Below the pieces are notes generated by a model. It did no database searches. It had not been told where the DNA came from and worked only from the letters and a program-made list of their open reading frames with translations. A DNA stretch of 52,018 nucleotides from a virus, in IMG/VR virus record IMGVR_UViG_3300044691_000304, positions 1-52,018 of that record. One strand, given 5' to 3'. This document shows, piece after piece, positions 6,478 through 49,009 of the stretch (positions are counted from its first letter, which is position 1; each line of letters begins with the position of its first letter). The translations under genes and the position numbers were made by a program.

Positions 6478-6487
6478 TTTAAAACCG

Positions 6488-6727: not shown

Positions 6728-6742
6728 ACACGATGGCTAGGA
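6717..6742 (+). repeat. 26-bp direct repeat, copy 2
   Basis: Second exact copy of the initiation-region repeat described at 6488-6513; it supplies the start of the 312-residue gene. Confidence 0.85.
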
Positions 6743-7662: not shown

Positions 7663-7922
7663 GCAGTAGAAGAACGGAGTTGACTTGCGGTCGAACTGTT
7701 GACATGTATCAAACCATCGGAACTTTGTTCGACAGCCCGCCCGGCAAAACGCCGCGGCGGGTTTCGCATTTCATGAAGCCGCTCCCCGATCCCTCGCTAA
7801 CCATCCAAGCATTCACGGGTCCTCCCGGCAGCTTGAACCAATACGGGCAAACTGAGCGCTCGACATCGCTAGTGCCAGACTTTCGGATGCATGCAACGGG
7901 AATGGCCTTGATTGGCGAGTAA
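7663..7922. other. Intergenic region before terminase; candidate cos site and promoter
   Basis: This 260-base gap precedes the small terminase gene, the place where lambda-type phages keep cos. It contains a GC-rich, two-fold symmetric core CGCCGCGGCG (7750-7759) flanked by CCCGCC and GGCGGG arms. TTGACT (7680-7685) with CATGTA 17 bases on and a second TTGACA (7699-7704) are weak promoter candidates. A 72-codon frame (7704-7922) spans the region, but it lacks a ribosome site and domain, so I do not call it a gene. The cos assignment is positional inference. Confidence 0.35.
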
Positions 7923-8486: not shown

Positions 8487-10359
8487 CGCGGTCGCCAAGG
8501 CCGCCTCTGAAGCGCTCGCGCCGGAGCCTAACCTAACCGTCAGCCAATGGGCGGACGCGCACCGCTACCTCTCCCAGAAGGCAGCAAGCGAGCCTGGGCG
8601 CTGGCGCACCGATCGCACACCATATCTGCGGGCGATCATGGATGCCCTGTCAGCGTCCTCGCCAGCGCAGCGCATCGTGTTCATGAAGGGCGCGCAGATC
8701 GGCGCCACCGAATCCGGGTTGAACTGGATCGGCTACGTTGTCCACCAGGCGCCGGGCCCGATGCTATCGGTCCAGCCGACCGTCGACATGGCGAAGCGCT
8801 ATTCGAAACAGCGCATTGCGCCGATGATCGAGGAAAGCGAGTCGCTTCGGGATCTGGTCAAGGAAGCCCGCGAGCGCGACAGCGGCAACACGGTTCTATC
8901 GAAAGAGTTTCCGGGCGGCGTGCTGGTGATGACCGGCGCGAATTCCGCGGTCGGGCTCCGGTCAATGCCGGCACGGTATGTATTCCTGGATGAGGTCGAT
9001 GGGTATCCGGGCGACGTCGACGGGGAGGGCGATCCGGTCGCGCTCGCCGAGGCCCGAACCAGAACCTTCCAGCGTCGCAAGGTCTACATGGTGTCGACGC
9101 CAACGATCGCGGGACGTTCAAGGGTAGAGCGGGAGTTTTCCAAGTCGGATCAGCGGCGGTTCTTCCTGCCCTGTCCGGACTGCGGTCACTTTCAGACGCT
9201 CAAGTTCGCAAACCTGAAATGGGACAAGGGCGATCCGAAGTCGGCGCAGTATATCTGCGAAGAGTGCGGATCCTGCCTCGGCGAACAGCATAAGACGGAG
9301 ATGCTGCGCCGCGGCGAGTGGCGGGCGACGGCCGAAGGTGATGGGCGGACCATCGGGTTTCATCTGTCATCGCTCTATTCGCCGGTTGGCTGGATGTCAT
9401 GGGTTGAAATAGCCCAACGTTGGGAAGCGGCACAGGGCGATCCTGATCTGCTGAAGGAATTCATCAACACCGTTCTCGGCGAGGTCTGGCAGGCCAAGGG
9501 CGACGCTCCGGAATGGGATGCCGTCTACCGCCAGCGCGGCTCGTATCGCGCCGGCACGGTCCCGCGCGGCGCGCTGGTGCTATTTGCCGGCGTTGACGTG
9601 CAAAAGGACCGCCTCGAGGTCGGGGTCTGGGGGTTTGGTCGCAACCGACACCGGTGGTTAATTGAACATCGCGTGTTGCCGGGCCCAACAAACCGTCCGG
9701 AGGTCTGGAACGATCTTGCGGCGATGTTCGATGAGACATGGCCGCACGAATGCGGGACAGAAATGTCGGTTCGCGACTGGGGTGTCGACTCCGGTGCCTT
9801 CAGTTCGGAGGTCGGGGCATTTGTTCGAGGCCAACAGGGCCGCGGGAACGTCTCGGCGGTCGACGGTCAGGACAGTTACGTCGCAGCCTTCATCGGCGTC
9901 GGCGGTATGGATCTCACGATCAACGGCAAGAAGCTGAAACGCGGCCTGAAGACGCTCAAAATCGGCGTCTCGTACTGCAAACAGGAAATTGTCGGGCAGT
10001 TGGCGCTGAACAAGCCGGAGGACGGCGCGCCGTATCCGCCGGGATTCGTGCATCTGCCGGAAAACGTCACCGAAGATCAGGTCAAGCAGCTCACGTCCGA
10101 ATCTCTCGTCACGAAAATGGTCAAGGGCCGCTCGAAACGCGAGTGGCAGATCATCGAAGGGCGCCGGAACGAAGTTCTCGACTGCGCCAACTACGCGCGC
10201 GGGCTCGCCGGGCGCCGTCAATGGGATCAATGGCGCGATATGCGCTTCAGAGAACTCGAAGCGCTGCTGAATTTGCCGCCGGACGATCCGACGACGCCAG
10301 CACCTCCGGTGCCATCACGCTTTCGCCGGCCAAGCGGTCGTTCGTCATTCATGAGGTAG
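8428..10359 (+). CDS. Terminase large subunit, GpA family
   Basis: I start at the ATG at 8428 (GGAAG site), giving 643 residues. ATPase domain: KGAQIGATE Walker A-like (about 87-95) and YVFLDEVDGYP Walker B (about 184-192). A Cys4 zinc ribbon follows (CPDC near 249, CEEC near 277). The C-terminal nuclease region has FAGVDVQKDRLEVGVWGFGR with the first metal Asp and DWGVDSGAF further on. This is the lambda gpA type, which cuts at cos sites and pumps DNA into the prohead. Length agrees with lambda gpA (641). The family choice supports a cos-packaging phage. Confidence 0.92.
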   Translation: MSDSSSPNTPNRRFVSQAYDAVAKAASEALAPEPNLTVSQWADAHRYLSQKAASEPGRWRTDRTPYLRAIMDALSASSPAQRIVFMKGAQIGATESGLNWIGYVVHQAPGPMLSVQPTVDMAKRYSKQRIAPMIEESESLRDLVKEARERDSGNTVLSKEFPGGVLVMTGANSAVGLRSMPARYVFLDEVDGYPGDVDGEGDPVALAEARTRTFQRRKVYMVSTPTIAGRSRVEREFSKSDQRRFFLPCPDCGHFQTLKFANLKWDKGDPKSAQYICEECGSCLGEQHKTEMLRRGEWRATAEGDGRTIGFHLSSLYSPVGWMSWVEIAQRWEAAQGDPDLLKEFINTVLGEVWQAKGDAPEWDAVYRQRGSYRAGTVPRGALVLFAGVDVQKDRLEVGVWGFGRNRHRWLIEHRVLPGPTNRPEVWNDLAAMFDETWPHECGTEMSVRDWGVDSGAFSSEVGAFVRGQQGRGNVSAVDGQDSYVAAFIGVGGMDLTINGKKLKRGLKTLKIGVSYCKQEIVGQLALNKPEDGAPYPPGFVHLPENVTEDQVKQLTSESLVTKMVKGRSKREWQIIEGRRNEVLDCANYARGLAGRRQWDQWRDMRFRELEALLNLPPDDPTTPAPPVPSRFRRPSGRSSFMR

Positions 10360-10363
10360 TTCG

Positions 10364-10582
10364 ATGGCCACTACGGCCGCTCAATTGCAGGCGTATATCG
10401 ACGCGCTGAAGGCGGCCCGCGGTAGCGGCGCGCTGTCGGTACGCCACGGCGAGGAAATGGTGACGTTTCGCAGCCTGTCCGAGATCAATTCGGCGATCGC
10501 CGCTAACGAGCAGGAGCTTTCGACGATGGGCGGTATGAAAACCGTGCGCGGCTATCGCATCACGACGCACAAGAACCTTTGA
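10364..10582 (+). CDS. gpW-like head-tail joining protein
   Basis: The 72-residue protein resembles lambda gpW: two helices around a beta hairpin (AAQLQAYIDALKAARGSGALSVRHGEEMVTFRSLSEINSAIAANEQEL). It lies between terminase and portal, exactly where W sits in lambda. In lambda it plugs the portal after packaging so that the connector and tail can attach. The end overlaps the portal start. Confidence 0.75.
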   Translation: MATTAAQLQAYIDALKAARGSGALSVRHGEEMVTFRSLSEINSAIAANEQELSTMGGMKTVRGYRITTHKNL

Positions 10583-13805: not shown

Positions 13806-14852
13806 ATGCCTCTTACCATGGACGTCTTTGCTCAGGACGCCTTCAGCGCCCAGAACCTCACCGCCGGAATCGACAAGGAGGGCTATACCCCGACCTTCCT
13901 GCGCTCGCTGCCCGGCCTGTTCGTGCCGCCGCCGCTCGGTCAACCGATGTCGAAGAATATCATGATCGAGACGCGCTTGAATGCGCCGACCTTGATCCAG
14001 ACTTCGCAGCGTGGCTCGCCGCCTGTCGAGGGCCGCACTGACGAAAAAACCCGCGACGTTCGCCCGTTTACTGTTCCCCGGATTGCGAAGTCGAAGCGTC
14101 TGGAAGCCCCGACGATCGCCGGTATCCGCGCGTTCGGATCGATCACGGAAATGCAGTCGATGGAGATGATGATCCAGCGGTTGCAATACCTGATGCAGAA
14201 CGATGTGGCGCTGACATGGGAAAATATGTGCCTTGGTGCCGTGCAGGGTATCACCAAGGACGCGGATGGCACGAACATCTATGACTGGACCGCCGCGACC
14301 GCGTTCAACCAGGCAATTCCGAACGAAGCGACTTGGGCGATGTCCAACACCACGGATGACGGGTCGACCCGCGCTGCATGCGCTGTTGCAGTCCGCTCTG
14401 TCACGCGAGCGCTGAAGGGTTTGGGCGGCAATAACGTCCGTTTCCAGGCTATCTGCAGCGATAGCTTCTGGGACAAACTGATCGCGTCCAAGGAAGTGCG
14501 CGCCACCTATCTCAACTATACGGCGGCGGCTTCGTTGCGTGAGGGCTCGGCGTGGGAAAACTTTACCTATGGCGGCATCAACTTCACCAACTATCGCGGC
14601 ACGGATGATGGCACCACCGTCGCGCTTGCCGACAAGAAGTGCAAAATCTTCCCGGTCAACGCCGGCATTTTCCAGATGGCCTACGCGCCCGCCGACGAGC
14701 GTTTCGAGTTCGTCGACACCCCCGGCCAGGAGTCCTATTCCTGGATCGTGCCCGATCTGCTGCGCAATACCTATGCCGACGTCGAGATGTATTCCTATCC
14801 GCTCGCCATCTGCACGATGCCCAGCGCACTCTACCCGGCTGCCATCTCCTGA
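13806..14852 (+). CDS. Major capsid protein, lambda gpE family
   Basis: The 348-residue protein matches the gpE family of HK97-fold capsid proteins over its whole length (lambda gpE has 341 residues). Features are the N-terminal segment with LPGLFVPPPLGQP, VRPFTVPRIAKSKRLEAPTIAGIRAFGS and the C-terminal PDLLRNTYADVEMYSYPLAICTMP. It has a GGAG ribosome site and the repeat-containing leader described above. No scaffold delta domain is fused to it. Confidence 0.92.
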   Translation: MPLTMDVFAQDAFSAQNLTAGIDKEGYTPTFLRSLPGLFVPPPLGQPMSKNIMIETRLNAPTLIQTSQRGSPPVEGRTDEKTRDVRPFTVPRIAKSKRLEAPTIAGIRAFGSITEMQSMEMMIQRLQYLMQNDVALTWENMCLGAVQGITKDADGTNIYDWTAATAFNQAIPNEATWAMSNTTDDGSTRAACAVAVRSVTRALKGLGGNNVRFQAICSDSFWDKLIASKEVRATYLNYTAAASLREGSAWENFTYGGINFTNYRGTDDGTTVALADKKCKIFPVNAGIFQMAYAPADERFEFVDTPGQESYSWIVPDLLRNTYADVEMYSYPLAICTMPSALYPAAIS

Positions 14853-26372: not shown

Positions 26373-28091
26373 ATGACTCTCCACTATCGCGAGACCGACG
26401 CCGTCTCCGGACGTTGGACCGGCAATACCAGCGGTGCAAGTCTGAGCGCGGCTCAGTTCGACGAGAACACCTACACGTTCGCAAAGGGTATTGAAGACCT
26501 CAACGCGGCTCTCTCTACCTCCGTCGTGAGCCTCTCCAGCATCTCACAGCCGCTGCCGAACGAACTGACGTTTCATCTGAGCGACGGATCGTCGCTGGGG
26601 CCGTTCACGATACCGGCGTCCGCCTTCCACAGCACAGGCGCGTGGGCGCCGAGCACGCCGCACGCCGTCAACGATACGTTCTACATCAATGGCGCCGTCT
26701 ATCTGGTGATCTTCCCGGACCCAGGCCAAAGTACGTTCGATGCCAGCGCCAATGACGGCCTCGGTCATAACTATTTCGAGGAGATGGTCCCCAACCCTGG
26801 CAATTCGATCGCGACCGGCGGCACGGCCGGCATGGTCTATACAAAGACTTCATCGACCGATTTCGCAGCGAGTTGGCAACTCACCCATGCCGTCAATGTG
26901 ACGTTCTCGCCGTCTACAGCAAGCGGCCTCGTTTCAAACAACGTTTCGGATGCTCTGGAAGAGATTGAAGCGTTGATCGGGACCGGCCCGGCGGGCTTCC
27001 TGCCGTTGTCCGGCGGTACGCTAACCGGAGCGCTTACGTTATCTGCCGATCCTGCAAGTGCGTTGCAGCCGGCCACGAAGCAATATGTCGATGGCATCGC
27101 GCTTAATCTCGGAACCAGGGGCAGGGTACGTGCAGCAACCACGGCAAACATCAATCTGGCCAGCGCGCTCGCAAGCGGATCCACCATAGATACCTCAGTG
27201 ACGCTGGCGACCGGCGATCTTGTGCTGGTGCGGTCACAATCTGCTCCGGCTAATAATGGCATTTACGTCGTTCCCGCATCCGGCGCCGCAAGCCGGTCGC
27301 CTGAGTTTGCGGCTTACAATGATCATCCGGGCTCACTGATCGCGGTTGAGGAAGGCACCAGCAATTCGCACACCATCTGGCTCTGTACCTCCAATACCGG
27401 GGGCACACTCGGCACGACGGCGATTGCCTTCAGCCAGTCGTCGGCGTCCGGGGCGTTGCTGTCGTCGAACAACCTGTCCGATGTCGGCAACGCGGGCACG
27501 GCACGCGCAAACCTCGGACTTGGCACTTCAGCGACGCATGCTTTAGGCGACTTTGCGCTGACGTCGAACAACCTGGCTGACATTGCAAACGCCGCATCGG
27601 CGCGCAGCAATCTGGGGCTGGGAAGCGCTGCGACGCATCCGGCTGGCGATTTTATGCAGAGCGGCAATAATCTGTCTGACCTCGCCAGCGCCGCGACCGC
27701 GCGCAGCAACCTAGGCGTTGCCACCAGCGCGATCGAATTCGTGATCGATGGCGGCGGGTCGACGATCACCACCGGGCTGAAGGGTTATCTGGAGATCCCG
27801 TTCGCCTGCACTATCACGGTCGGGACATTGCTGGGCGACCGGTCAGGCAGCGTCGTGGTCGACGTCTGGAAATGCTCCTACGCCAATTTCGACGCCGGTT
27901 CGACCCATCCGGTATCCGGCGACAAGATCACGTCCTCGGCGCCGCTGACGATTTCGACGGCGACAAAATCGCAGGACTCGACCCTGACCGGTTGGACCAC
28001 CTCGCTCAGCGCTGGCGACATCATCGCCTTTAACGTCAATAGTGTAACCTCGATGCAGCGGGTGACGGTCTCGCTCAAGGTCACCCGCTAA
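26373..28091 (+). CDS. Repetitive tail fibre protein
   Basis: The 572-residue fibre contains a phage-fibre repeat (LPLSGGTLTGALTLSADPASALQPATKQYVD, residues 209-239). Three tandem copies of NNLSD-n2-NA-n-TAR-NLGLG follow (residues 367-451), typical of trimeric shaft repeats that promote recombination between fibre genes. The C-terminal 120 residues form a different beta domain and may be the tip. The region 240-350 (RGRVRAATTANINLASAL, LVLVRSQSAPANNGIYVV) is another common fibre module. Confidence 0.8.
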   Translation: MTLHYRETDAVSGRWTGNTSGASLSAAQFDENTYTFAKGIEDLNAALSTSVVSLSSISQPLPNELTFHLSDGSSLGPFTIPASAFHSTGAWAPSTPHAVNDTFYINGAVYLVIFPDPGQSTFDASANDGLGHNYFEEMVPNPGNSIATGGTAGMVYTKTSSTDFAASWQLTHAVNVTFSPSTASGLVSNNVSDALEEIEALIGTGPAGFLPLSGGTLTGALTLSADPASALQPATKQYVDGIALNLGTRGRVRAATTANINLASALASGSTIDTSVTLATGDLVLVRSQSAPANNGIYVVPASGAASRSPEFAAYNDHPGSLIAVEEGTSNSHTIWLCTSNTGGTLGTTAIAFSQSSASGALLSSNNLSDVGNAGTARANLGLGTSATHALGDFALTSNNLADIANAASARSNLGLGSAATHPAGDFMQSGNNLSDLASAATARSNLGVATSAIEFVIDGGGSTITTGLKGYLEIPFACTITVGTLLGDRSGSVVVDVWKCSYANFDAGSTHPVSGDKITSSAPLTISTATKSQDSTLTGWTTSLSAGDIIAFNVNSVTSMQRVTVSLKVTR

Positions 28092-29476
28092 TGGCGCTCG
28101 CTCTTGATGGCCATGCAGCAACAATAATTAACACCAGTGGTACTACTGCCGCGTCGGTAACACTCACTACAACCAGCGCTGATGATGTTATCGTCGCGCT
28201 CGTTTCAATCTTTACAAATCAGGTGACGAACTCCGCGAGCACGGCTCCCGGCGTTCTCAATGTGAGCGGCGGCGGTCTCACCTGGGGTCTACGTTCCAGA
28301 GCGCGGCTCATCACATCTGTTTCCTCCGTTCCATTGATCGAGGAAGAGTGGGTTGCCCACGCGCCGTCGGCGCTTACCGCGCAGACGATAACGGCGTCGA
28401 TGGGAGGCGTCGGCACCAGCAACTTCATGGGCCTAGAGGTGTTCGGCGTTTCGGGCGCCGATACCGATGCTGTATTCGACACCAACGTGTCACTGCCAGC
28501 CATTGCGGCATTTGCAGCCTCTGGCGGCACGTCTTCACATCCGGTCACTGGAATTTCGACCACAAACGCAAACACGTTTGAGATCGCCGCGCTGGCGACG
28601 GCGGCGGGTGGTACGGGAACGGCAACCGCCGACAGCGGCTTTACGTTGCTCGACAGCAAGTGGTTCAGCGGCACCAACGCCGGGCATCAAGCGGAATATC
28701 AGATCAATTCTTCGCTGCTTTCCAGCGTCAGCCAAAACGTCTTCTCCAGCGTATCCGCGATTGGCACCAACTATATCGCTTTGGTTGACGCCATTATTGC
28801 TGCACCCGGCAGCGCGCGAGCAGGGCCGAAATTTGTCAATTCCGGCGGCGGCACATTATTTAACAGCACATCGGCCACGGCGGTGCTGCCGGGTTCGCTG
28901 GTTAACGGTAACCTCCTTCTGGCCCATATATCAGTCGGGTCATCAACGGCGACGCCCGTCTGGCCCGCCGGCTGGACCCCGATCGGCTCCAAATGGACGA
29001 TTGGCACCCAGACAGGTCACCAAGCTTATTGTTATGTTACAGGATCAGAAACCGCCCCGACCGTCACTTGGACTGGCACAGCCGGGGGCATGATCCAAGT
29101 CATTCAAATTAGCGGCACCGACGCGAGTAGTCCGATTGGGGCTACATCGCACAATTCGGCAAGCAGCGCGTCCGCTACTTGCACCGCCATCACGACGACG
29201 CGCGCCAACAGTCTGGTTTTGAATTTCCTTGACGTTGGCGAAGTCTTGGCAACGCCAGCACCGTATCCTTGGCGTTCTAGGGTGACTGGTGGCGGTACGT
29301 CCCCTGCGATTGGTTGCTGGCACATTGCCGATGAATTTCTACCTACGTCAGGGACGACGAGCGACAGTGTGAACCTCACGCTCTACGCCTCGTGTACGTA
29401 TCTGAATTTCACGACGGAAATTCTCGCTCCCGGTGTAGCTGCGTCGGTAAGGTCACAAGCCGTGATCATTTTCTGA
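28091..29476 (+). CDS. Two-domain beta-rich adhesin, last gene of the tail block
   Basis: The 461-residue protein overlaps the fibre gene (TAATG). It consists of two related beta domains. Residues 1-235 and 250-455 share the order of strands and motifs: HAATIINTSGTTAASVTL/ VIVALVSIF against LVNGNLLLAHISVG; SKWFSGTNAGHQAEY against SKWTIGTQTGHQAYCY; FGVSGADTDAVFD against ISGTDASSPIG. It probably arose by internal duplication. No enzymatic motif is seen. It is likely an accessory receptor-binding or virion surface protein. Confidence 0.55.
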   Translation: MALALDGHAATIINTSGTTAASVTLTTTSADDVIVALVSIFTNQVTNSASTAPGVLNVSGGGLTWGLRSRARLITSVSSVPLIEEEWVAHAPSALTAQTITASMGGVGTSNFMGLEVFGVSGADTDAVFDTNVSLPAIAAFAASGGTSSHPVTGISTTNANTFEIAALATAAGGTGTATADSGFTLLDSKWFSGTNAGHQAEYQINSSLLSSVSQNVFSSVSAIGTNYIALVDAIIAAPGSARAGPKFVNSGGGTLFNSTSATAVLPGSLVNGNLLLAHISVGSSTATPVWPAGWTPIGSKWTIGTQTGHQAYCYVTGSETAPTVTWTGTAGGMIQVIQISGTDASSPIGATSHNSASSASATCTAITTTRANSLVLNFLDVGEVLATPAPYPWRSRVTGGGTSPAIGCWHIADEFLPTSGTTSDSVNLTLYASCTYLNFTTEILAPGVAASVRSQAVIIF

Positions 29477-29485
29477 GGGAAAGGC

Positions 29486-29953
29486 TCAGTCGCCACGCTT
29501 ATAAATAGTCGTGGTGCGACTTTCCTGCGTTGCGCCTCTTGGCGCACCTTCTAGATCGTCCTTGATCCGCATGCAATTCGTCGGTGTGCAGTAATATGCG
29601 TAATATTCGTGGGTCTCTTTCTTCGAGTAAATGTTGACGCGGTGGCCTCTCGCTTCGCCCTCGACCAAGATGCGGGCGCTGTAGAGTTGCTTGCCCTCCG
29701 GGCCGTAGACGTAAATCACGGTTGAGCCAAGCCCGATCCCGGTCAGGGCTAGTTGGTGATCCGTGATGGCATTCGCTTCGACAACACCCTTGGATATTAC
29801 CTTCACGGTTTCGAACGGATTGGCGAACTTTAGAACCTCAACCGCGCCCATCGGAACGTTGATCTCTGAGTCGAAGATTACCTGATCCGGGTCCGCGGCA
29901 CTTACCGGCCCCGTTAGTAGCGCAATGAAAACCAAAGCCAAAAACAGTCTCAT
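29486..29953 (-). CDS. Secreted protein resembling the N-terminal domain of pilus/type II-III secretins
   Basis: I start at the ATG at 29953 (AGAGGA site), giving 155 residues with a signal peptide MRLFLALVFIALLTGPVSA. Residues 20-100 match the T2SS-T3SS_pil_N domain of CpaC/RcpA-type secretins: INVPMGAVEVLKFANPFETVKVISKGVVEANAITDHQLALTGIGLGSTVIYVYGPEG. The rest is a short basic tail with two Cys (YCTPTNC). The secretin barrel is absent. It is a lone minus-strand gene at the end of the tail operon, a typical moron position, and GCCCC-TAAA-GGGGC lies at about 29969-29982 upstream. An effect on Tad/Flp pilus assembly, for example to block superinfection, is inference. Confidence 0.65.
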   Translation of the reverse strand: MRLFLALVFIALLTGPVSAADPDQVIFDSEINVPMGAVEVLKFANPFETVKVISKGVVEANAITDHQLALTGIGLGSTVIYVYGPEGKQLYSARILVEGEARGHRVNIYSKKETHEYYAYYCTPTNCMRIKDDLEGAPRGATQESRTTTIYKRGD

Positions 29954-29988
29954 CTGAAGTCCTCTCAAGCCCCTAAAGGGGCGATAGC

Positions 29989-30015
29989 CTACCACCACAA
30001 CCCCACTGCGAACAA
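29989..30015 (+). repeat. Imperfect direct repeat, left border of the glycan cassette
   Basis: A 27-base C/A-rich sequence with core CAACCCCAC matches 33740-33766 at 22 of 27 positions. The two copies stand just before 30064 and just before 33799, bracketing the five-gene cassette. They could be related promoter or regulatory sites, or traces of the insertion. Confidence 0.4.
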
Positions 30016-30063: not shown

Positions 30064-30966
30064 ATGAAGCCGCAACTTCGCGTCCTTGGCATGTATGGAA
30101 TCGGTGACTGCATTTTCAACCGTGCACCGATCCGCGAACTGATGAAAAGCCACAGCGTGACGCTGGAGGGATTTTATCCGTCGATCGTGCACGATCTTGT
30201 CGCGGATGGATTGAAGTTCTCGATTCTCAATGGCCGGTTGCCGCCACGGATCAAGGATAGCGGGCATCCGACCGAATACGGACGCATCGCAGCCTCTATG
30301 CCGAATACGAAATTGACCTATGATCCTACCCAGATCAAAAAGGCCGGAAGCATTCTCGCAGCGCAGTTTGCCTCTGTTGGGCTGAAGATGCCGGCACAAC
30401 CGGATTTCAGCCTACCGATTCCAGCCTCGTGGCGCGACAAGGCAAGGGCGCTGATAGAGTGCTGGAAGCCGCCGCGGCCGATCATGATCTATCGGCCCAT
30501 CGTGCAAAACAAGGTTTGGGAATGCCCGTCGCGCAGTCCGGAACCGGTCGCCTATGCCGCGCTGTTCGCCGCGATCCGGGAACGCTTCTTTGTCGTCTCG
30601 ATTGCAGACCTGAAACAGCAGGAATGGATCGTTGGGCCAGAACAGGATGCCGATGTCAAACTGCATCACGGCGAGGTCGATTTCGAAACGCTGGCCGGGC
30701 TGTTCGCTGAATGCCAGATGGTATTCGCCAATCCGGGCTTTTCCCCGGTGCTGGCGCAGGCGGTCGGAACGCCGGTTATCATCGTCTATGGCGGGAACGA
30801 GAGCTTCCGCACCACCAATTCAGTTGGCGCGCATCTGGCGCCGACGCTGGCGATCGAGCCAATCAATCCCTGCGAGTGTCACGCGCGCACGCATAATTGC
30901 GACAAGCGGATCGATGTTTCGGCGGCGCTCGATCGCGTGAATGAGTTTGCGGGGCGCTACGCATGA
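30064..30966 (+). CDS. GT9-like (heptosyltransferase-type) glycosyltransferase
   Basis: The 300-residue protein has the GT-B/GT9 architecture: a short N-terminal Rossmann start (LRVLGMYGIGDCIFNRAPIRELMKSH), a linker and a C-terminal nucleotide-sugar domain with HHGEVDFETLAGLFAECQMVFANPGFSPVLAQAVGTPVIIVYGG (residues 200-243). That is the GT9 pattern of an acidic helix, a small-residue loop and GTPVI. GT9 enzymes add heptose or related sugars to lipopolysaccharide core. The acceptor here is unknown. First gene of a five-gene overlapping cassette. Confidence 0.65.
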   Translation: MKPQLRVLGMYGIGDCIFNRAPIRELMKSHSVTLEGFYPSIVHDLVADGLKFSILNGRLPPRIKDSGHPTEYGRIAASMPNTKLTYDPTQIKKAGSILAAQFASVGLKMPAQPDFSLPIPASWRDKARALIECWKPPRPIMIYRPIVQNKVWECPSRSPEPVAYAALFAAIRERFFVVSIADLKQQEWIVGPEQDADVKLHHGEVDFETLAGLFAECQMVFANPGFSPVLAQAVGTPVIIVYGGNESFRTTNSVGAHLAPTLAIEPINPCECHARTHNCDKRIDVSAALDRVNEFAGRYA

Positions 30967-31673
30967 AGGTCCTGATCTTTGCGACCACATGGGTCGACAC
31001 GCCGGAGCGCCGGAGGTTGATCCGGCAATGGGTCGAGCTACATACCGCGATCAACCCGGATTGTGATTTCATGCTGGTGGATTCGGCGTCGCCGCTTTTG
31101 GGTTTACCACCAAGCTTCGAACGCGCGACGCCGTATTGTTCGCACCATCAGGCCCGGCGGCTGGTTTCCTTTCTTGAAAATATCGGCCATCTTTCGCACA
31201 GCGGGAGGGATGGCTGGGGCCGGGCGTTCTGCCATGGCCTCATGGCTGCGATCGAGGATCGTTACGATTACGTGGTCCATATCGAGGGCGACAGCCTGTT
31301 CCGCCTTCCCGTGATGCCGATCGTCGAGCAGATGGCGCTTGGCGAGATCGATGTCACCTCAGTGCCGATCGGCTACGGCGAAGCGCAGCGGTCTACTTGG
31401 GTCGAAACCGGGCTCATGTTCTTCAGCGTTGACTATCTGCGCGAAAGCAATTTTATCGCCGGTTATGATTGGCCGAACCGGACTGCGAGGCCGCAGCCGG
31501 AAATCGTCATTCGCAAGATGCTCGGCAATGATCTAGTGATGCTGCCGATCAAAGCGGAGCGCAGCGACAAGGGCGAGATCACGGTCGACAACGTCACCGA
31601 ATACGACTGGATCACGCATTGCAAGCCTGAAGTTTATGATCGATTTGCGGCGCTAGAACATGCCGTGTCTTGA
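30963..31673 (+). CDS. GT-A-like glycosyltransferase candidate
   Basis: The 236-residue protein starts MKVLIFATTWVDTPERRRLIRQWVELH, as in GT-A nucleotide-sugar domains. It carries YDYVVHIEGDSLFRLP near 100-115, where EGDS may stand in for the metal-binding DxD. The later WVETGLMFFSVDYLRESNF and the closing VTEYDWITHCKP supply possible acceptor-site residues. It overlaps both neighbours (ATGA before, 14 bases after). I cannot name the GT family; a role with the preceding GT9-like enzyme is inferred from coupling. Confidence 0.5.
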   Translation: MKVLIFATTWVDTPERRRLIRQWVELHTAINPDCDFMLVDSASPLLGLPPSFERATPYCSHHQARRLVSFLENIGHLSHSGRDGWGRAFCHGLMAAIEDRYDYVVHIEGDSLFRLPVMPIVEQMALGEIDVTSVPIGYGEAQRSTWVETGLMFFSVDYLRESNFIAGYDWPNRTARPQPEIVIRKMLGNDLVMLPIKAERSDKGEITVDNVTEYDWITHCKPEVYDRFAALEHAVS

Positions 31674-32520
31674 AATAACGACGATGGTAGGATGTCCCAT
31701 GCGGTGCACGTTCTGCCCGCAGGACAAGCTGAGCGCCAATTACACGGATGAACTTCGCCATCTGACGCTGGACAATTTCAAGACGATCCTGGCGAAGGTG
31801 CCAAAATACGTTCGGATTGATTTCTCGGGAATGTCGGAGCCGTGGGCCAACCGTTTTGCAACGGGCATGCTCGATCACACTCTAAGCGAAGGTTATAGCG
31901 TCGCCGTCTATACGACGCTGCAGGGCATGCGGGACCCTGATCGCGTTATCGAACTGTTGTTTCGTCATATGGAGCAGGTCGAACATATCGTCGTCCATCT
32001 TCCGGACGTGAACGGCAACATGCGAGGATTCAGAGATAGCGATGGATATCGAGCGGCGCTGACTGCATTCGAACGGGCTCGCGATAACGGCCAATTGAGA
32101 GCGCTATCATTCATGACGATGGATGATGCCGGCCGGTCTCTGGACGATATCGCGACGCCTACTGATCTTGTCTGGAGTGCGCTGACCCGCGCGGGCAATG
32201 TTTCCGTGGAAGGGCAATCGATTGAAGAGAGTCCGTCTCACCGAACGCCGGTCTTGTGCAGCTATACGCCGTTCTACGATCAGAATGTTCTTCTCCCGAA
32301 CGGCGATGTTGTTCTGTGCTGCATGGATTATTCGATCAAACACAAGATCGGAAACTTGTTGAGCGGTGATTATTTCTCGCTGTTTTCCGGCAGTGGCATC
32401 AACGATCTACGCACCGAGAACATGAAGTTTTCCGATAAATCGATCTGCCGCAAATGTTCGCGCGCGACCGCTCTGGATATTATGGAAGATGCAAAGCAGC
32501 ACTGGCGCTGGCCGCAATGA
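31660..32520 (+). CDS. Radical SAM enzyme with SPASM-like C-terminus
   Basis: The 286-residue protein has the radical SAM cluster motif CPMRCTFC (Cys12, Cys16, Cys19). A radical SAM barrel follows, and after it comes a C-terminal SPASM-like region with cysteines in CSYTPFYDQNVLLPNGDVVLCCMDYS (about 210-236) and SICRKCSRA near 265-273. These would hold auxiliary iron-sulfur clusters. Such enzymes modify peptides or sugars (epimerisation, dehydrogenation, cross-linking). Between glycosyltransferases and methyltransferases, modification of a sugar or sugar-bearing protein is the likeliest role. There is no small precursor-peptide gene beside it. Confidence 0.75.
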   Translation: MPCLEITTMVGCPMRCTFCPQDKLSANYTDELRHLTLDNFKTILAKVPKYVRIDFSGMSEPWANRFATGMLDHTLSEGYSVAVYTTLQGMRDPDRVIELLFRHMEQVEHIVVHLPDVNGNMRGFRDSDGYRAALTAFERARDNGQLRALSFMTMDDAGRSLDDIATPTDLVWSALTRAGNVSVEGQSIEESPSHRTPVLCSYTPFYDQNVLLPNGDVVLCCMDYSIKHKIGNLLSGDYFSLFSGSGINDLRTENMKFSDKSICRKCSRATALDIMEDAKQHWRWPQ

Positions 32521-33167
32521 CGGATCATCCGCATCAATGGTACGGGTCTAGCACCTACGCGCAGCACGGCGATGATCTCGCGATCATCAACATCTTCGGA
32601 CGCATGGGACTTTCCAAGCCTAGCTATCTGGATATCGGTGCTCACCATCCGTTCGATCTTTCCAACACGGCGCTGCTCTACGCGCGCGGATCACGCGGCA
32701 TCAACGTGGAGGCCAACCCGGCCCTGATGGCAGCGTTTGAGAAAGACCGGCCCGAAGATAAAAACGTCTGCCTCGCGGTCGGGCCGCAGTCCGGCTCGGC
32801 AAAGCTATTCCGCATCAACAAAACATCCGGCTGCAATTCGCTGCTGCCGATCGAAGGCCACGGTGCGCTACTGGATGCGATCGATGTTCCCGTGATGACG
32901 GCGGACGAGATTGTAAGCATCTATGCCGATGGATGCTGGCCTGATCTTTTGACGCTGGACGCGGAGGGAATGGACTTCAGCATTCTTGCCAGCATCGATT
33001 ATTCTGGTAGATGTCCCAAGGTGATCTGTGCGGAGGCCAATTCTCCGGCCGGTGACGCGGGAAACGATATCCGGGCGCTGATGACGGAGCGCGGTTATTT
33101 CCTTCATTCGTGGTGCGGCAGCAACATGCTGTTCGTCCGCGCCGAGTTGAAAGATTGGCTGTACTGA
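32517..33167 (+). CDS. FkbM-family methyltransferase
   Basis: From the ATG at 32517 (ATGA overlap) it encodes 216 residues: SYLDIGAHHPFDLSNTALLYARGSRGINVEANP (SAM site with the acidic strand end), PVMTADEIVSIY, DLLTLDAEGMDFSIL and KVICAEAN. That is the FkbM pattern. FkbM enzymes O-methylate sugars and natural products. In this cassette it would methylate a glycan, which can hide or alter phage or host surface structures. Confidence 0.75.
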   Translation: MTDHPHQWYGSSTYAQHGDDLAIINIFGRMGLSKPSYLDIGAHHPFDLSNTALLYARGSRGINVEANPALMAAFEKDRPEDKNVCLAVGPQSGSAKLFRINKTSGCNSLLPIEGHGALLDAIDVPVMTADEIVSIYADGCWPDLLTLDAEGMDFSILASIDYSGRCPKVICAEANSPAGDAGNDIRALMTERGYFLHSWCGSNMLFVRAELKDWLY

Positions 33168-33694
33168 TGATCGGTCTCAATTTCGGCTGCGGAACGAACC
33201 GGCTTGAGGGCTGGCAGAATTTCGACGCCGAGATCAATATCGAAAAGCCGCTGCCGTTTCCGAATCACCATGCCGACTTCATCATGGCCGAACACGTCGT
33301 TGAGCATATCGATTATTATTCGGCGATCCGGTTCTTCAGAGAAGTCTTGATCGTCCTGAAATCCGGCGGCGTGTTTCGCATCATCGTTCCGTCGATCGAG
33401 CAAATTCAGAACTGCAATGATCCGGATTATTACAAGTTCGCCAGCAAATGGGGTCCGAGCGCGGATGCCCGCGGCGCGATGTTTGCGATCCTCTACGCGC
33501 ACGGCCACAAGACAGCGTGGACCGCATCGCTCATGGCGTCGACATTGTTCTATGTCGGCTTCGACCAAGTCCGGCAACGTGATCTGCATCTGTCTGACCA
33601 CTCGGAACTGTGCGACGTCGAAGGCCATCACAAGGTGATCGGAGAGAAGTTCAACGCGATCGAAAGCCTCGTTTTCGAAGCGACCAAATCCTAA
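33167..33694 (+). CDS. SAM-dependent methyltransferase (type 11-like)
   Basis: From the ATG at 33167 (TGATG overlap) it encodes 175 residues. MIGLNFGCGTNRLEGWQNFDAEIN is motif I of class I methyltransferases. ADFIMAEHVVEHI is the post-motif typical of predicted methyltransferases beside glycosyltransferases, and VLKSGGVFRIIVPSIEQI is the later strand. Second methyltransferase of the cassette and its last gene. Confidence 0.7.
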   Translation: MIGLNFGCGTNRLEGWQNFDAEINIEKPLPFPNHHADFIMAEHVVEHIDYYSAIRFFREVLIVLKSGGVFRIIVPSIEQIQNCNDPDYYKFASKWGPSADARGAMFAILYAHGHKTAWTASLMASTLFYVGFDQVRQRDLHLSDHSELCDVEGHHKVIGEKFNAIESLVFEATKS

Positions 33695-39151: not shown

Positions 39152-42100
39152 GTGAAAATTAATCTAAGGATAGGCTTGTTTTCGCGGCTTGTTATTGCCG
39201 CTAGCCCATCCGTGTCCAGCGTCTTGACGCTCGCCAAAAGCTCTTTTGTCGTCAAAATTATTAAGGCGCCTAAAAACCACCGCGCTGCCGTCGTTTTGTC
39301 GGCCGGTGTCGGATCTTTTGCGATGACCGCTCAGGATGCGGTCATCACGGTCCAACGTGGGCTGGCGGCGGATGTCGGATCATTTTCGATTGCGGGCGTC
39401 GCTGGAGCCTTGACTAAGGAGGCTCCTGGCGAGTTCGTCCTTGCCGCATTACACGCTGCATTCACGGTATCTGGTCAAGACGCGGTCCTTCGCAGCGCGC
39501 GCGTTTTGGTGGCCAGTGTCGGATCGCTTGCGCTATCAGGTCAAGCGGCGATTCTTACGATGCGGCGTAGGCTAGTGGCTGCGACTGGATCGTTCTTGCT
39601 ATCTGGTCAAGCTGCGATCCCGACGACGCAGCGTAGGGTAGCGGCGGCGGCGGGATCGCTTTCGGTGGCCGGCATTGCTGCGGGCTTGACCAAAACGACG
39701 CCGGGCGCGCTCGTTCTCGCTGCGGCGCCGGGGTCGTTCACCGTATCCGGTCAAGCGGCGGCCCTTTCCAGTAGTGCTGCATCATTTACCCCAGCCTGGC
39801 GAACGCTTCAGCTAGGCGCAGGCGGCCAGATCACCAACATCGATATCATGGCCGACGGCACCACGGTCATCAGAACGGACACCTATGGAGCCTATCTAAA
39901 GCTCGGCTCCGGTTCGGCTAGTTGGGGTGGCAGCAGCTACGCGGCGCCCGCATGGCAGCAGCTATTCACCGTCAACACGATGGCGGGAATGACCCAGGCC
40001 GATTTCTTTGTATTTGTCGACGCCCTCAACATGGGCTGCTTCGAAATAGCGGTCGCACCGAGTAACACCAACGTCGCCTATGCGATCGTCGCCGGCTATG
40101 TCTGGGTCACCCAGAACCTGCAGGCCGGAGCGAACGTCTCCTGGACGCGGCTTTCTCTCACGTCGACCTATAGCGGCAATACCAACGGGTCGAAAGAGCG
40201 CAGCAAGTTCATCGCAATCGATCCGAATGATCCGGACAAGGCCGTGTTTTCGGTTTCCGGCGGCGTTTACTACACGCTCAACGGCACCGGCGCCACCCCG
40301 ACGTTCACGGCGACATCCATCACGCAAGCCGCAACGCCCAATATCATTGCCTGGGATCCGGCTTCTTCTTCGCATCTGTGGATCGGCAAAGACGGTACCG
40401 GGGTCTACGAGAGTACGACTGGGCCGAGCGGCGCCTTCACACTGACGAGCGGGACGCAAACCGGCGTCTACAAGATGGTCTGCGATAAATTCTCGCAGCT
40501 TTGGTTGCTGACGGTCGCGACCGGCATCAGCAATATCTACCGGTTCAAGAACGGCGTCGGCTGGACCACGGTTGCAATAGGGGCGACCGACAGCTGGGTC
40601 AATATCGCCATCGATCCCGCCAGCGCATCAAGCGCCGCAAACCACGTTGTTGTCACCAGCTACGGCGGCCAGCCGAACGTCAGTTCGAATAATGGTAGTA
40701 GCTGGACGGGGGCGTTCTCTAATCAGACGGTAAGTATCCCCGGAACCGAGCCGAGTTGGTTCGCTAATGCCAATCAGAGCAGCGGCGGCATTATTTTCCT
40801 GAGTACGCTCGATATTGAGTTTGATGGCTCAGGAAATCTGTATAACGCGGCCGGCATCGGAGTCTGGACAACGCCGGCGCCAGTATCGGCCAGCAGCGCC
40901 GTATGGACCTCGTTCTCGCTTGGGATCGAGCAGCTTATTCCGAACAGGGTTATTTCTCCGCCGGGTGGATCGCCGGTCGTTGCGACTTGGGATCGTGCGT
41001 TCTTCCTGTGTCAGAACCCTGATATTTTCCCCACCAAGAATTTGCCGATCGATAGCAGCAACATCATCTGCGACGGCTGGGCGATTGACTACGCCTCCAA
41101 TGATCCGACGTTCCTCGCCGGATGGGCGGGGCGCGCCAGCAACCAAGGCTGTTCCTCGACGGACGGCGGTAACACCTTCACCCGATGGACCGGATTCCCG
41201 GCCGCGACCAACATCGGCGGCGACATCGCGGTCTCCACATCGCTCAACTTTGTCCTGTTCCCCGGCAACGGCGGCGGCCAATCGTTGCAATACACCCTGG
41301 ATGGTGGCGCGACGTGGGCGGCCTGCGTCGGTATCACGGGAGTCTACGGTTCCCAGAGCGGGTTTAATGCGCTCGCGGCAGAGCGCGCCGGGGCGTCCGG
41401 CACTTTCTGCGCGGTCGATTTCTCGACCGGTGATTTCTACAAATCGACCAACGGGGGCGCTAACTGGACCAAGGTCGCGACGTTCGCAGCCTCCGGTGTC
41501 GATGGCGGCGGCGCCGATGTGTTCGAGTCGATGCCCGGCCAGGCGGGGACCTACTTCTTCTCAGGCGGTGGCAGCAGCGGCACGCACCCGCACACCAATC
41601 GTCTCTGGAAGAGTACGAACTACTGCTCCAACTGGTCCGCCATCAGCAATGTCGTTGAAGTCTGGGCGTTTGGCTTCGGCGCGCCGAAACCCGGATTCAC
41701 CCCCGCCACGATCTATATCGTCGGCTGGTACAATGGCGTCTTCGGCTTCTACCAGAGCAGCGATATCGGCGCGACCTGGACCGCCTGCCAACTGTCGGCG
41801 GGTCAGACGACATTCCCCATGGGAGCGGTCTCATATCCCTACAGCCTGACCGGAGACATGAACGTCTACGGCCGGATGTACACCGGGGTGAACGGGGCCG
41901 GGTTTGCCTATGTGGACACGCAGGACGCCTGCCCCTGGGTGAACTTCTCGAACGCCAAGCCGCATCAGAATTTCACCGGTACCGTCACGCTGACGGCCAA
42001 GCACTCCGGGCTGGTGCCTGTTTCAGGCGTTCAGTTCAGCGTGGACGGCGTGAACATCGGCTCGGCTCAAACCGGTGCGGGACCATATTCCGTCTCGTGG

Positions 42101-42199
42101 GTGACCGGAGGCGTCACAACCGGGGCGCACACTTTGAAGGTGACGGCGACCGGGGCCAACGGCAGCGGATCATTTTCGATCCCTATCACGACTCATTGA
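39152..42199 (+). CDS. Tail spike candidate: N-terminal repeats, beta-propeller with Asp-boxes, Ig-like C-terminus
   Basis: From a GTG at 39152 it encodes 1015 residues. Residues 45-210 hold about seven degenerate repeats built on GSF/L-n-S-GQ-AA-L-T with VLAA between them. Residues 210-930 form a beta-propeller of the sialidase/GH74 superfamily with Asp-box motifs SSNNGSSW, STNGGANW, STNYCSNW and SSDIGATW. The C-terminal 80 residues are an Ig-like domain (TVTLTAKHSGLVPVSGVQFSVDG). GH74-type propellers cut beta-glucan or xyloglucan chains, so this may be a depolymerase for plant-associated or capsular polysaccharide. The catalytic acids cannot be fixed by eye. Confidence 0.65.
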   Translation: MKINLRIGLFSRLVIAASPSVSSVLTLAKSSFVVKIIKAPKNHRAAVVLSAGVGSFAMTAQDAVITVQRGLAADVGSFSIAGVAGALTKEAPGEFVLAALHAAFTVSGQDAVLRSARVLVASVGSLALSGQAAILTMRRRLVAATGSFLLSGQAAIPTTQRRVAAAAGSLSVAGIAAGLTKTTPGALVLAAAPGSFTVSGQAAALSSSAASFTPAWRTLQLGAGGQITNIDIMADGTTVIRTDTYGAYLKLGSGSASWGGSSYAAPAWQQLFTVNTMAGMTQADFFVFVDALNMGCFEIAVAPSNTNVAYAIVAGYVWVTQNLQAGANVSWTRLSLTSTYSGNTNGSKERSKFIAIDPNDPDKAVFSVSGGVYYTLNGTGATPTFTATSITQAATPNIIAWDPASSSHLWIGKDGTGVYESTTGPSGAFTLTSGTQTGVYKMVCDKFSQLWLLTVATGISNIYRFKNGVGWTTVAIGATDSWVNIAIDPASASSAANHVVVTSYGGQPNVSSNNGSSWTGAFSNQTVSIPGTEPSWFANANQSSGGIIFLSTLDIEFDGSGNLYNAAGIGVWTTPAPVSASSAVWTSFSLGIEQLIPNRVISPPGGSPVVATWDRAFFLCQNPDIFPTKNLPIDSSNIICDGWAIDYASNDPTFLAGWAGRASNQGCSSTDGGNTFTRWTGFPAATNIGGDIAVSTSLNFVLFPGNGGGQSLQYTLDGGATWAACVGITGVYGSQSGFNALAAERAGASGTFCAVDFSTGDFYKSTNGGANWTKVATFAASGVDGGGADVFESMPGQAGTYFFSGGGSSGTHPHTNRLWKSTNYCSNWSAISNVVEVWAFGFGAPKPGFTPATIYIVGWYNGVFGFYQSSDIGATWTACQLSAGQTTFPMGAVSYPYSLTGDMNVYGRMYTGVNGAGFAYVDTQDACPWVNFSNAKPHQNFTGTVTLTAKHSGLVPVSGVQFSVDGVNIGSAQTGAGPYSVSWVTGGVTTGAHTLKVTATGANGSGSFSIPITTH

Positions 42200-43882: not shown

Positions 43883-44845
43883 ATGTCGCAGCACTTCCTT
43901 CTCACGGCAAAGGCGAGGTCGCTAAGTTTAGCGAAGGTCGCCCGTTTGTCGGACGAGGAAGCCTATCAGACCTTCAAGCTGATCCGTTGGGCCGCCACTG
44001 ACGGCGCTCCGGTCTGCCCGCGTTGCGGCTGTGTCGCCGTCTATACCTACGCGACCCGCAAGCTGTTCAAGTGCAAAGCCTGCAACCACCAATTCAGCGT
44101 TACCAGCGGGACGATTTTCGCCAGCCGCAAGTTGCCAATTCGCGACTACCTCCTGGCGATTGCAATTTTCGTCAACGGCGCGAAGGGCCATGCCGCCCTT
44201 CAACTGAGCCGCGACTTGGATTGCCAGTACAAGACAGCCTTTGTCATGTCGCACAAAATCCGCGAAGCGCTCGCGTCGGAAGCCAAGGGCGCGACCGTTT
44301 CCGGTGAGGTCGAAGTGGACGGCGCATACTTCGGCGGCCACGTTCGCCCGGCGAACAAAAAGACTGATCGCAAGGACCGTCGCCTTGCGGAAAACCAGAC
44401 CGGCAAGCGCCGCGTGGTTGTCATCATGCGCGAGCGCGGCGGTCGCACGCTGCCTTTCGTGTTCAAGTCTGAGGATGCTTCGGTCGTCACCATCGCCCGC
44501 ACCGTTGCGCCCGGCAGCACGGTCTATGCCGACGAGGCAACCCATTGGGACGCGCTACATGCGCGCTTCCTGACGAAGCGTATTAATCACTCTGAGGCGT
44601 ATTCAACGGACGAAGCCAACACTAATCAAGCGGAGTCGTTTTTCTCGCGACTTCGCCGTGCAGAGATCGGCATTCATCACCACGTCGCAGGCCCGTATCT
44701 TTCGGCCTATGCCAGCGAAATGGCTTGGCGCGAAAACAATCGCCGCGTGAGCAATGGCGAGCAATATTTGATGACGACTAGCGCAGCCCTCACTCACCCG
44801 GTTTCGCGGCAGTGGAAGGGCTATTGGCAGCGCGCGCAACGGTAA
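43883..44845 (+). CDS. IS1595-family transposase (ISXO2-like DDE)
   Basis: The 320-residue protein has an N-terminal zinc ribbon (CPRCGC at 45-50, CKACNHQF at 64-71), then GTIFASRKLPIRDYLLAIAIF. The DDE core has Asp146 in EVEVDGAYFGGH, Asp217 in VYADEATHWD and Glu251 in NQAESFFSRLRRAEIGIHHH, and the closing AWRENNRR. Full length with all catalytic residues, so the element should be mobile. The opening MSQHFLLTAKARSLSLAKVARLSDEEAY is typical of the family. Confidence 0.95.
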   Translation: MSQHFLLTAKARSLSLAKVARLSDEEAYQTFKLIRWAATDGAPVCPRCGCVAVYTYATRKLFKCKACNHQFSVTSGTIFASRKLPIRDYLLAIAIFVNGAKGHAALQLSRDLDCQYKTAFVMSHKIREALASEAKGATVSGEVEVDGAYFGGHVRPANKKTDRKDRRLAENQTGKRRVVVIMRERGGRTLPFVFKSEDASVVTIARTVAPGSTVYADEATHWDALHARFLTKRINHSEAYSTDEANTNQAESFFSRLRRAEIGIHHHVAGPYLSAYASEMAWRENNRRVSNGEQYLMTTSAALTHPVSRQWKGYWQRAQR

Positions 44846-45187: not shown

Positions 45188-45264
45188 TGGTACTAGGGGT
45201 CGGATTCGAACCAACAACCCTCTCGCGACCAACGAGCCACTCTACCAATTGAGCTACACCTAGC
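45188..45264 (-). tRNA. tRNA-Thr(GGT)-like gene, degenerate, inside the transposon
   Basis: The minus strand folds as a tRNA: D arm GCTC-AATTGGTA-GAGT, anticodon arm GCTCG-TTGGTCG-CGAGA with anticodon GGT, T arm GTTGG-TTCGAAT-CCGAC and an encoded ACCA end. The best acceptor register (GCTAGGT with CCCTAGT) has one mismatch and leaves three instead of two linker bases. The anticodon stem has one G-A mismatch and position 37 is C rather than a purine. C2-G71, anticodon GGU and A73 agree with threonine identity. It has its own terminator, so it may be expressed; it could also be a decaying copy. Confidence 0.6.
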
Positions 45265-47792: not shown

Positions 47793-47965
47793 GTTTTACA
47801 GTCGGGCACGATGTTCTGCCGACGTTCACGGTTTTACGTGATTTTGTTGTAAAACGTATGTCATTGAGAGGGCTAAGTAATTGCCCTGAATGACATGCTA
47901 GGCAAGAATATCCCATGTGTTGATTTCCTTGGATAATTTGGCGGTTACTGTAAAACGTTTTACAG
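47793..47965. promoter_or_regulatory. Putative attP / integrase arm region
   Basis: Between the 51-residue gene and the integrase stop the motif TTTTACR or its complement occurs at least five times (about 47796, 47831, 47851, and twice in the palindrome). The last is a perfect 18-base palindrome CTGTAAAACG/CGTTTTACAG (47948-47965) that includes the integrase stop codon. Clusters of short repeats beside an integrase gene are typical of arm-type sites and attP. The core cannot be fixed without a host sequence. Confidence 0.45.
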
Positions 47966-49009
47966 CTTTCGTTCTTTTGATGTTCTATGGTCGTCCATTT
48001 TAATCAGGGCCGCCTTGCCCCCGATCTTGCGATCAGCGTACCGGCAGTAGCGAGAAATCGTGCTCAGCGACATGCCAACAATGTCGCCAATCTGACCCGT
48101 TGAAAGCCCCTCCTGGCGTAAGCGAATAACGGCTGTGCAGCGGAGGCCGTGCAGGGTAACGCCCTTAAGCTCAGGTATGTTCTCTATCGCCTCATCGAAA
48201 TGGCGCCAGAAACTTTTCCTCTTATACACATCGCCGTTGGGCTGGCGGAGAAACGGCCCCGGCACCTTTCCCCACGTCGCCATCTCGACAGCAAGTTCCG
48301 GCACGATCGGACACCAGACTTCCACGCCGGTTTTGTTCTGGCCCAGACTGAACCCGCCATCGTCAATATCGGTCGGCCCGAGGCGCACCACATCTTGGCC
48401 TCGCTGGCCGGTGTAGAGGTACAGCATGAAGCCCTTCCGGACGTCGCCAGTGAGCTTGGCCTTGGCGGCAGCTATCTGCGCTTCGTTCCATGGCTTGTGG
48501 CCTCCGGTGACTTTGTAGGCCTTCACGCCCTCGGTCATGCTCTGGGTTACGAGATCCTTGACCCTCGCCCAGCCCGAGAATGACTTCATACAACTCAGAA
48601 AATGGTTTGCCTTTGACGGCGTGTCGGCCATCTCTTCCATTAGTGCCTTGACATGCGCCGGCCGGATTCCGCTTACCGGGAGATCTCCCCAAGCCTTCTT
48701 GGCGAAACTCAACGACCTCCCGTAGTGATAAAGCGTGATCGGCGTAATGGTCTTGCCAGCCACGGTCAGATACTGATCGATCGCAAGGCTGACTGTGTTC
48801 GTCTGCGGCAGCTTGCTCTTGCCTTGCGCCTCTCGCAGCACCGCCCAGAACTCCGGCGTCTGGGGATCGTGGTCGATCTTGATGCGCGGACCTTGCGCGG
48901 ACGTGCCTCTACCGGCCTGAAAGTAATAATACTCGTGCCCCCGAGACGTGACCTTGTGAACGCCTTTAGGCAGAACCACGGCGGCCCTCTGTCGCTGTTT
49001 TGATGGCAT
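47960..49009 (-). CDS. Tyrosine-family integrase
   Basis: The 349-residue protein has an N-terminal arm-binding part, a SAM-like core-binding domain (LAIDQYLTVAGKTITPITLYHYGRSLSF) and a catalytic domain. The latter has Arg203 in YTGQRGQDVV, Lys226, His287-n2-Arg290 in LHGLRCTA, and the nucleophile Tyr321 or Tyr324 in ISRYCRYAD. The usual second His/Trp position is Met (IVGMS), a variant I recall from some rhizobial phage integrases. It inserts the phage into the host chromosome. The excisionase-like gene overlaps its start by 44 bases. Confidence 0.92.
   Translation of the reverse strand: MPSKQRQRAAVVLPKGVHKVTSRGHEYYYFQAGRGTSAQGPRIKIDHDPQTPEFWAVLREAQGKSKLPQTNTVSLAIDQYLTVAGKTITPITLYHYGRSLSFAKKAWGDLPVSGIRPAHVKALMEEMADTPSKANHFLSCMKSFSGWARVKDLVTQSMTEGVKAYKVTGGHKPWNEAQIAAAKAKLTGDVRKGFMLYLYTGQRGQDVVRLGPTDIDDGGFSLGQNKTGVEVWCPIVPELAVEMATWGKVPGPFLRQPNGDVYKRKSFWRHFDEAIENIPELKGVTLHGLRCTAVIRLRQEGLSTGQIGDIVGMSLSTISRYCRYADRKIGGKAALIKMDDHRTSKERKL

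Follow-up and report, generated by a model that had tools for sequence, protein, structure and literature searches.

In a 52,018-base viral DNA record of IMG/VR (IMGVR_UViG_3300044691_000304; this whole stretch is referred to below as the window), which by its gene content represents a temperate tailed phage, at least six genes encode glycosyltransferases (GTs), methyltransferases and a radical S-adenosylmethionine (SAM) enzyme (rSAM). We interpret these genes as an assembly line that works in the host cytoplasm to glycosylate virion proteins of the phage itself, in the capsid and/or the tail, and assign this interpretation a probability of roughly 0.6. Five of the genes follow one another in tandem on the + strand at 30064-33694, between the tail and lysis genes, and the sixth, denoted ST after the 'alpha-2,3-sialyltransferase' label of its PHROG family, starts six bases past the end of the major capsid protein gene. 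The gene content and the linkage of the six genes are established with high confidence, and the set very probably directs glycan synthesis. That related genes of other viruses are frequently merged into one multi-domain enzyme, encoded beside the capsid gene, suggests that a chemically trimmed sugar chain is built on the phage's own particle rather than on the host.

A preliminary description of the window had recognized in the five-gene block a GT9-like GT, a second GT, a radical SAM/SPASM enzyme, an FkbM methyltransferase and a type-11 methyltransferase, all overlapping and jointly forming one glycan-modifying unit in a phage. The five genes are real, as judged by their open reading frames (ORFs), Pfam matches and folds, and the unit stands, although its sixth member, ST, had been overlooked. 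The limits of the block hold as well, but the starts originally given for the FkbM gene (32454) and the type-11 gene (33110) were those of the longest ORFs and are refined here to 32517, the more likely start given the ATGA overlap with the stop of the rSAM gene, and 33167 (TAATG). With all starts read from the overlaps (Table 1), successive genes share 4, 14, 4 and 1 bp, an arrangement indicative of translational coupling of the five. A promoter scan at the block produced nothing usable and no promoter-like site.

Evidence that these genes act together comes from gene fusions in viral relatives. Profile searches across all fetched loci detected nine ORFs in which ST, GT9, the GT-A domain and the type-11 methyltransferase (ST-GT9-GTA-MT11) form a single polypeptide, with ST as the N-terminal and the methyltransferase as the C-terminal domain, and fourteen ORFs with the GT9-GTA-MT11 arrangement (3 of the 23 duplicate others, coming from contigs sampled more than once). 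Because ST and components of the block are joined in one protein in these relatives, we consider ST to belong with the five-gene block, and such fusion, though confined to some genomes, is solid evidence for cooperation where the parts are encoded separately. The window contains the same parts as the fused protein, as separate genes at two sites, and in one relative (L002) the order is capsid, ST, GT9, rSAM, GTA, FkbM, MT11, all unfused. The FkbM gene is frequently the next one after the fused transferase ORF. The comparison of gene order with related phages that the preliminary description had proposed shows that homologues of the block genes recur together in other phage contigs, so that their grouping is not due to chance. 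The same comparison limits the earlier claim that such a set is unusual: this is the case among annotated isolates only, whereas related sets are common in viral metagenomes, where 71 rSAM loci were counted along with about 24 sets in fused or clustered form.

A second line of evidence is the linkage to virion structural genes, which in the window consists in the position of ST behind the capsid gene and in the relatives in location within head operons. The distance from the end of the capsid gene to the ST domain is 13-491 bp in 14 of the 25 ST records, the window included. By PHROG assignment, the capsid neighbours are of the phrog_29 type, the protease-capsid/D3-like types and the T4 gp23 type; these represent three capsid families, of which one enters solely through a lone GT-A gene. 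At 6460-10410 of a 185-kb contig (L107), a T4-type major capsid gene is followed, after 78 bp, by a single-gene GT-A domain and a family 2 GT. Elsewhere, the set lies between the genes for the portal and head closure Hc1 (L005), ST, GT9 and a methyltransferase gene lie between the capsid and tail genes (D3-like Pseudomonas phages), or the set comes after tail fibre or tail genes (L008, L009, L104-L106 and likewise the five genes of the window). In the flanks of the rSAM-only loci, a capsid gene was detected in 0 of 68, with queries limited to these capsid families. In phage PAJU2, the ST homologue, ORF010, is deposited as a 'structural protein', which we count in favour of a virion target.

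The preliminary description had named host lipopolysaccharide (LPS) or the virion as the target, and the comparative evidence favours the latter: besides ST behind the capsid gene and the head-neck sites of relatives, the enzymes appear soluble and come without a flippase or lipid-carrier enzyme. The highest 19-residue hydropathy among the cassette proteins does not exceed 1.83, the hydropathy scan detected a convincing membrane helix in none of them, and all the enzymes are predicted to be soluble; the block encodes no flippase, lipid-carrier enzyme or membrane-bound GT. Soluble enzymes lacking such partners would most simply act on a protein acceptor in the cytoplasm.

The window encodes GTs of two folds together with the GT42/Maf-like ST protein. 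The GT9-like protein has no Pfam match, and its model shows a GT-B fold resembling those of WaaC, WaaF and TibC (Foldseek against the PDB: TibC 4rap, 1e-9; WaaF 1psw, 1.8e-9; WaaC also matched). The family profile A1, which includes D3-type members, reaches WaaF (1psw) at E 0.0023. Asp15, near the N-terminus and within a GxGD motif, is invariant and is probably the equivalent of the catalytic Asp of WaaC. At the C-terminus, a conserved CxC-x4-[H/C]xC motif is a putative metal site, given that His and Cys interchange among family members, as expected of metal ligands. TibC O-heptosylates a protein (PMC4358343), and the closeness of the GT9 model to this protein O-heptosyltransferase, its best Foldseek match, also speaks for a virion protein acceptor. 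TibC and the other BAHT enzymes share with the window protein the GT-B fold and, likely, a four-ligand metal-binding motif. However, the GT9-like protein (300 aa) lacks their N-terminal beta-barrel, carries the CxC-x4-[H/C]xC motif in contrast to the four-Cys iron finger of TibC, and is only 12-13% identical to them; having neither barrel nor iron finger, it is not a BAHT member, and its relation to TibC appears to be one of analogy.

For the GT-A protein, which is without a Pfam or PHROG family and has zero relatives in annotated phages, the model yields 410 PDB matches at E<=0.001, including LARGE1, UGGT, LgtC and domain 1 of the chlorovirus protein A064R (2p6w), and a HIEGDSL motif is nearly invariant among its homologues. 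The type-11 methyltransferase has one relative only in annotated phages. Members of the ST family match PF01973 (best E 4.9e-7) and, weakly but colinearly, the CstI/CstII sialyltransferases. PF01973 (MptE-like) is a domain shared with Maf flagellin transferases. Because the similarity to both CstI/II and Maf-type enzymes is weak, a true sialyltransferase role for this protein was not adopted.

The radical SAM/SPASM assignment is supported by the CX3CX2C motif, invariant in 77 of the 77 sequences that cover it, and by five conserved C-terminal cysteines (window protein positions 199, 219, 220, 262 and 265) that would be consistent with one auxiliary cluster. The family is largely viral in our search, with 71 viral loci versus 3 bacterial ones, counts that are lower bounds biased to close kin given that the scan relied on exact short peptides. 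Its tree has two branches. Branch A, comprising the window and L002-L009, travels with the transferase set, except in L003. Branch B, from about 60 phages, occurs in the replication region with genes for a GT10 fucosyltransferase-like protein, an FkbM-like protein, a family 2 GT and one further GT-like protein; outside branch A, such a GT lies <=3 kb from the rSAM gene in 61 of 65 loci. The rSAM gene is missing near many fused-transferase loci, which was verified across the whole record for eight of these. Given that fused transferases often occur without it and that it accompanies GTs elsewhere, the rSAM is an optional tailoring enzyme, an add-on that travels with glycosyltransferases and is not central to the pathway. 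Apart from the window's set, the branch B arrangement (GT10-like, FkbM-like, rSAM, GT2, GT-like), found in the replication region of L022, L060 and about 50 other viral contigs, represents a second widespread phage glycan cassette.

A pathway consistent with these observations would begin with the transfer of a first sugar, possibly heptose drawn from the ADP-heptose pool of the host, onto Ser/Thr residues of a virion protein by the GT42/Maf-like and/or the GT9-like enzyme. The GT-A enzyme would then lengthen the chain, the type-11 and FkbM methyltransferases would cap hydroxyls, and the rSAM, where present, might oxidise, epimerise or dehydrate one of the sugars. Location beside capsid and tail genes would favour co-expression with the acceptor. 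Heptose is our best, if tentative, guess for the donor sugar because the L009 set includes a heptose-phosphate-kinase-like gene (3k85, 1.4e-36) and a sugar epimerase; the kinase-like gene falls below the NCBIfam heptose-kinase cut-off, so its assignment is at the family level only. The L108 set adds nucleotide-sugar dehydrogenase-like and epimerase-like genes. The phage might benefit through the hiding of receptor-binding or antigenic surfaces, greater particle stability or the avoidance of unproductive adsorption.

Several observations weigh against this interpretation. Both the glycan and its acceptor, probably a virion protein, are predicted from gene content. In the window, only ST adjoins the capsid gene; the other five genes lie 15 kb away, past the tail fibres and behind a divergent moron, and might be expressed on their own, for instance by the prophage, although the scan revealed no promoter-like site. 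The seven capsid-adjacent records that share one capsid family by sequence inflate the apparent number of independent cases. In L093 the set is located, as judged by eye, beside a DnaB-like gene, and in about 55 phages the related rSAM occurs with other GTs in the replication region, as described above. Finally, in L003 (3950-16330), which belongs to the window's own rSAM subclade, the rSAM gene sits beside a 5-hydroxymethyldeoxyuridine (5-hmdU) DNA kinase domain, a thymidylate-synthase-like gene, a helicase and a DNA polymerase; this gene content marks a thymine-hypermodification locus, and it warns against over-reading the company that the rSAM keeps.

The main alternative is that the enzymes modify the host surface, altering the LPS core or O-antigen either in lysogens, with superinfection exclusion as the outcome, or late in infection, blocking adsorption of other phages or of released progeny. 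The phage is temperate, as marked by its integrase, GT9 and GT42-type enzymes act on LPS too, and upstream of the block, which is sited between the tail genes and those for lysis, lies a divergent gene for a secreted, pilus-secretin-like moron product, as in moron islands. Nevertheless, the missing membrane-bound GT, flippase and lipid-carrier enzyme do not fit this scenario, the relatives lie within head-gene operons, whose expression is normally late and does not extend to lysogens, and a four-enzyme fusion beside a capsid gene has no obvious explanation in terms of LPS. We therefore regard host-surface modification as unlikely. Its gtrABC-type variant, serotype conversion, which involves a flippase and bactoprenol-linked membrane GTs, is rejected given that no cassette protein contains a membrane helix.

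A role of the GTs, rSAM and methyltransferases in adding groups to a modified base of the phage DNA is considerably less probable. The L003 locus, with the hmdU kinase domain and thymidylate-synthase-like gene adjoining an rSAM of the window's subclade, and the proximity of the branch B cassettes to DNA polymerase and helicase genes are compatible with such a role. However, the hmdU kinase domain (PF18723) is absent from the window and 46 other records, thymidylate synthase (PF00303) is absent from the window, and neither capsid adjacency nor the protein-heptosyltransferase-like fold fits DNA as the substrate; the Tet/JBP search (PF12851), in which the positive control stayed silent, speaks neither for nor against it. 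Least credible of all is maturation of a peptide or protein by the rSAM, through a crosslink or epimerisation like those in ribosomally synthesized and post-translationally modified peptides (RiPPs), with the GTs incidental or adding sugar to the modified peptide: SPASM-domain rSAM enzymes often modify peptides, but the overlapping genes leave no space for a fitting small precursor ORF, no RiPP-maturase NCBIfam model scores above its cut-off, and the rSAM is missing near most transferase fusions and sits beside GTs in those 61 loci outside branch A. The RiPP reading, against which the preliminary description had already argued, is accordingly rejected, with neither a precursor nor a maturase family match.

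Among characterized systems, that of chlorovirus PBCV-1, in which A064R unites two GT domains with a methyltransferase and the separate A061L adds a second methyl group to the glycan of the major capsid protein (PMC9614988), may be the closest working model for the window's set. Both systems combine a multi-domain GT-GT-MT protein with a separate second methyltransferase, the fusions in our case being those of the window's relatives, as evidenced by genes, and the GT-A model of the window matches A064R domain 1 (2p6w) with a TM-target of 0.63. Against this, the sequence identity to A064R is 11%, and the GT-A model has hundreds of matches besides 2p6w; moreover, the PBCV-1 glycan is an N-glycan of a eukaryotic virus, made without a GT9, GT42-like or rSAM component. 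In bacteriophages, virion glycosylation by phage-encoded GTs is described for the mycobacteriophages Che8 (gp110), Corndog (gp38) and Myrna, with both capsid and tail proteins as targets (PMC12363180, which refers to Freeman et al. 2023). The likeness to the window, drawn from that description, is one of gene function, namely phage-encoded GTs for virion proteins; as described there, these are single GTs, and no methyltransferase/rSAM set or four-domain fusion is mentioned (PMC12363180).

The Pseudomonas phages D3, PAJU2, PP9W2 and Psp6 come closer in gene arrangement, with ST-like, GT9 and methyltransferase genes between the capsid and tail genes and GT9 proteins 25-28% identical to that of the window. 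Unlike in the fused relatives, these genes are separate, no rSAM, FkbM or GT-A partner was seen with them, and the D3-type methyltransferase has no detectable relation to that of the window. In D3 itself (L113), the ST-like gene (orf7), GT9 (orf12) and the methyltransferase (orf13) lie at 5951-9143 among head-neck genes, and this gene set predicts that the D3 virion would prove to be glycosylated.

Table 1. Features of the window that bear on the proposed pathway (pLDDT, predicted local distance difference test)
Feature	Position	Strand	Support
GT42/Maf-like transferase ('alpha-2,3-sialyltransferase', phrog_4603), ST, 203 aa	14859-15470	+	phrog_4603 5.7e-31
GT9-like (GT-B) glycosyltransferase, 300 aa	30064..30966	+	model pLDDT 92.7; phrog_6804 9.5e-26
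GT-A glycosyltransferase, 236 aa	30963..31673	+	model pLDDT 88.5; Foldseek GT-A matches
Radical SAM enzyme, C-terminal SPASM/twitch-type domain, 286 aa	31660..32520	+	PF04055, PF13186 above cut-off
FkbM-family methyltransferase, 216 aa	32517..33167	+	PF05050 2.5e-13; TIGR01444 above cut-off
Class I (type 11) SAM methyltransferase, 175 aa	33167..33694	+	PF08241 4.4e-6, above cut-off
Major capsid protein, proposed acceptor or neighbour	13806..14852	+	phrog_29 major head protein 1.4e-29
Tail fibre/virion protein, possible acceptor	26373..28091	+	phrog_2282 tail fibre and others; 24.7% Ser+Thr
Ser/Thr-rich protein, tail region upstream of block, possible acceptor	28091..29476	+	26.2% Ser+Thr
Integrase (mark of temperate phage)	47960-49009		

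In the remainder of the window, the genes for the terminase large subunit, portal, head protease, tape measure, tail fibre and integrase were recognized in addition to that for the major capsid protein, and a nucleotide search of its 20-38 kb part against phage records gave zero matches. The tail fibre/virion protein listed in Table 1 is common to the window and L008/L009; the Ser/Thr-rich protein that follows it has no family match among Pfam and PHROG. The divergent secreted protein upstream of the block (29486-29998, - strand; likely start 29954) carries the N-terminal domain of pilus secretins (PF13629, 3e-11) and lacks relatives among annotated phages; it is possibly a moron that interferes with Flp/Tad pili. 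A 1015-aa protein with a bacterial Ig-like domain (Big_7) and 20.7% Ser+Thr (39152-42199, +) is perhaps another surface or tail protein. Further genes encode a small protein with a DnaA C-terminal DNA-binding domain (4162-4668, +; PF08299, 8e-26), an IS1595/ISXO2-type transposase (43883-44845, +) and tRNA-Thr(GGT) (45188-45264, -), the last located 2.7 kb from the integrase gene.

Phage virion glycosylation itself is known; the novelty lies in a pathway of several, often fused enzymes, in its linkage to the capsid gene and in the tailoring by an rSAM and two methyltransferases. The literature searched, with incomplete coverage, contained no description of phage radical SAM/FkbM/GT sets or of capsid-linked heptosyltransferases. 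In its most specific form, which we put forward as a speculative proposal that could well be wrong, tailed phages of Gram-negative bacteria would possess a self-contained capsid-glycosylation line, often condensed into one four-domain protein whose gene directly follows that of the capsid. This line would add a heptose-based, methylated and, in the present case, radical-SAM-tailored oligosaccharide to HK97-fold capsids; it would parallel, in bacteria, the A064R system of chloroviruses and would have escaped notice even in D3. If this is true, virion glycosylation would recur as a modular trait across many other phages, carried out by dedicated multi-enzyme proteins, rather than being a peculiarity of mycobacteriophages. 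Such a trait would bear on how antibodies, hosts and environments see phage surfaces, and would bring radical SAM chemistry into viral glycan synthesis.

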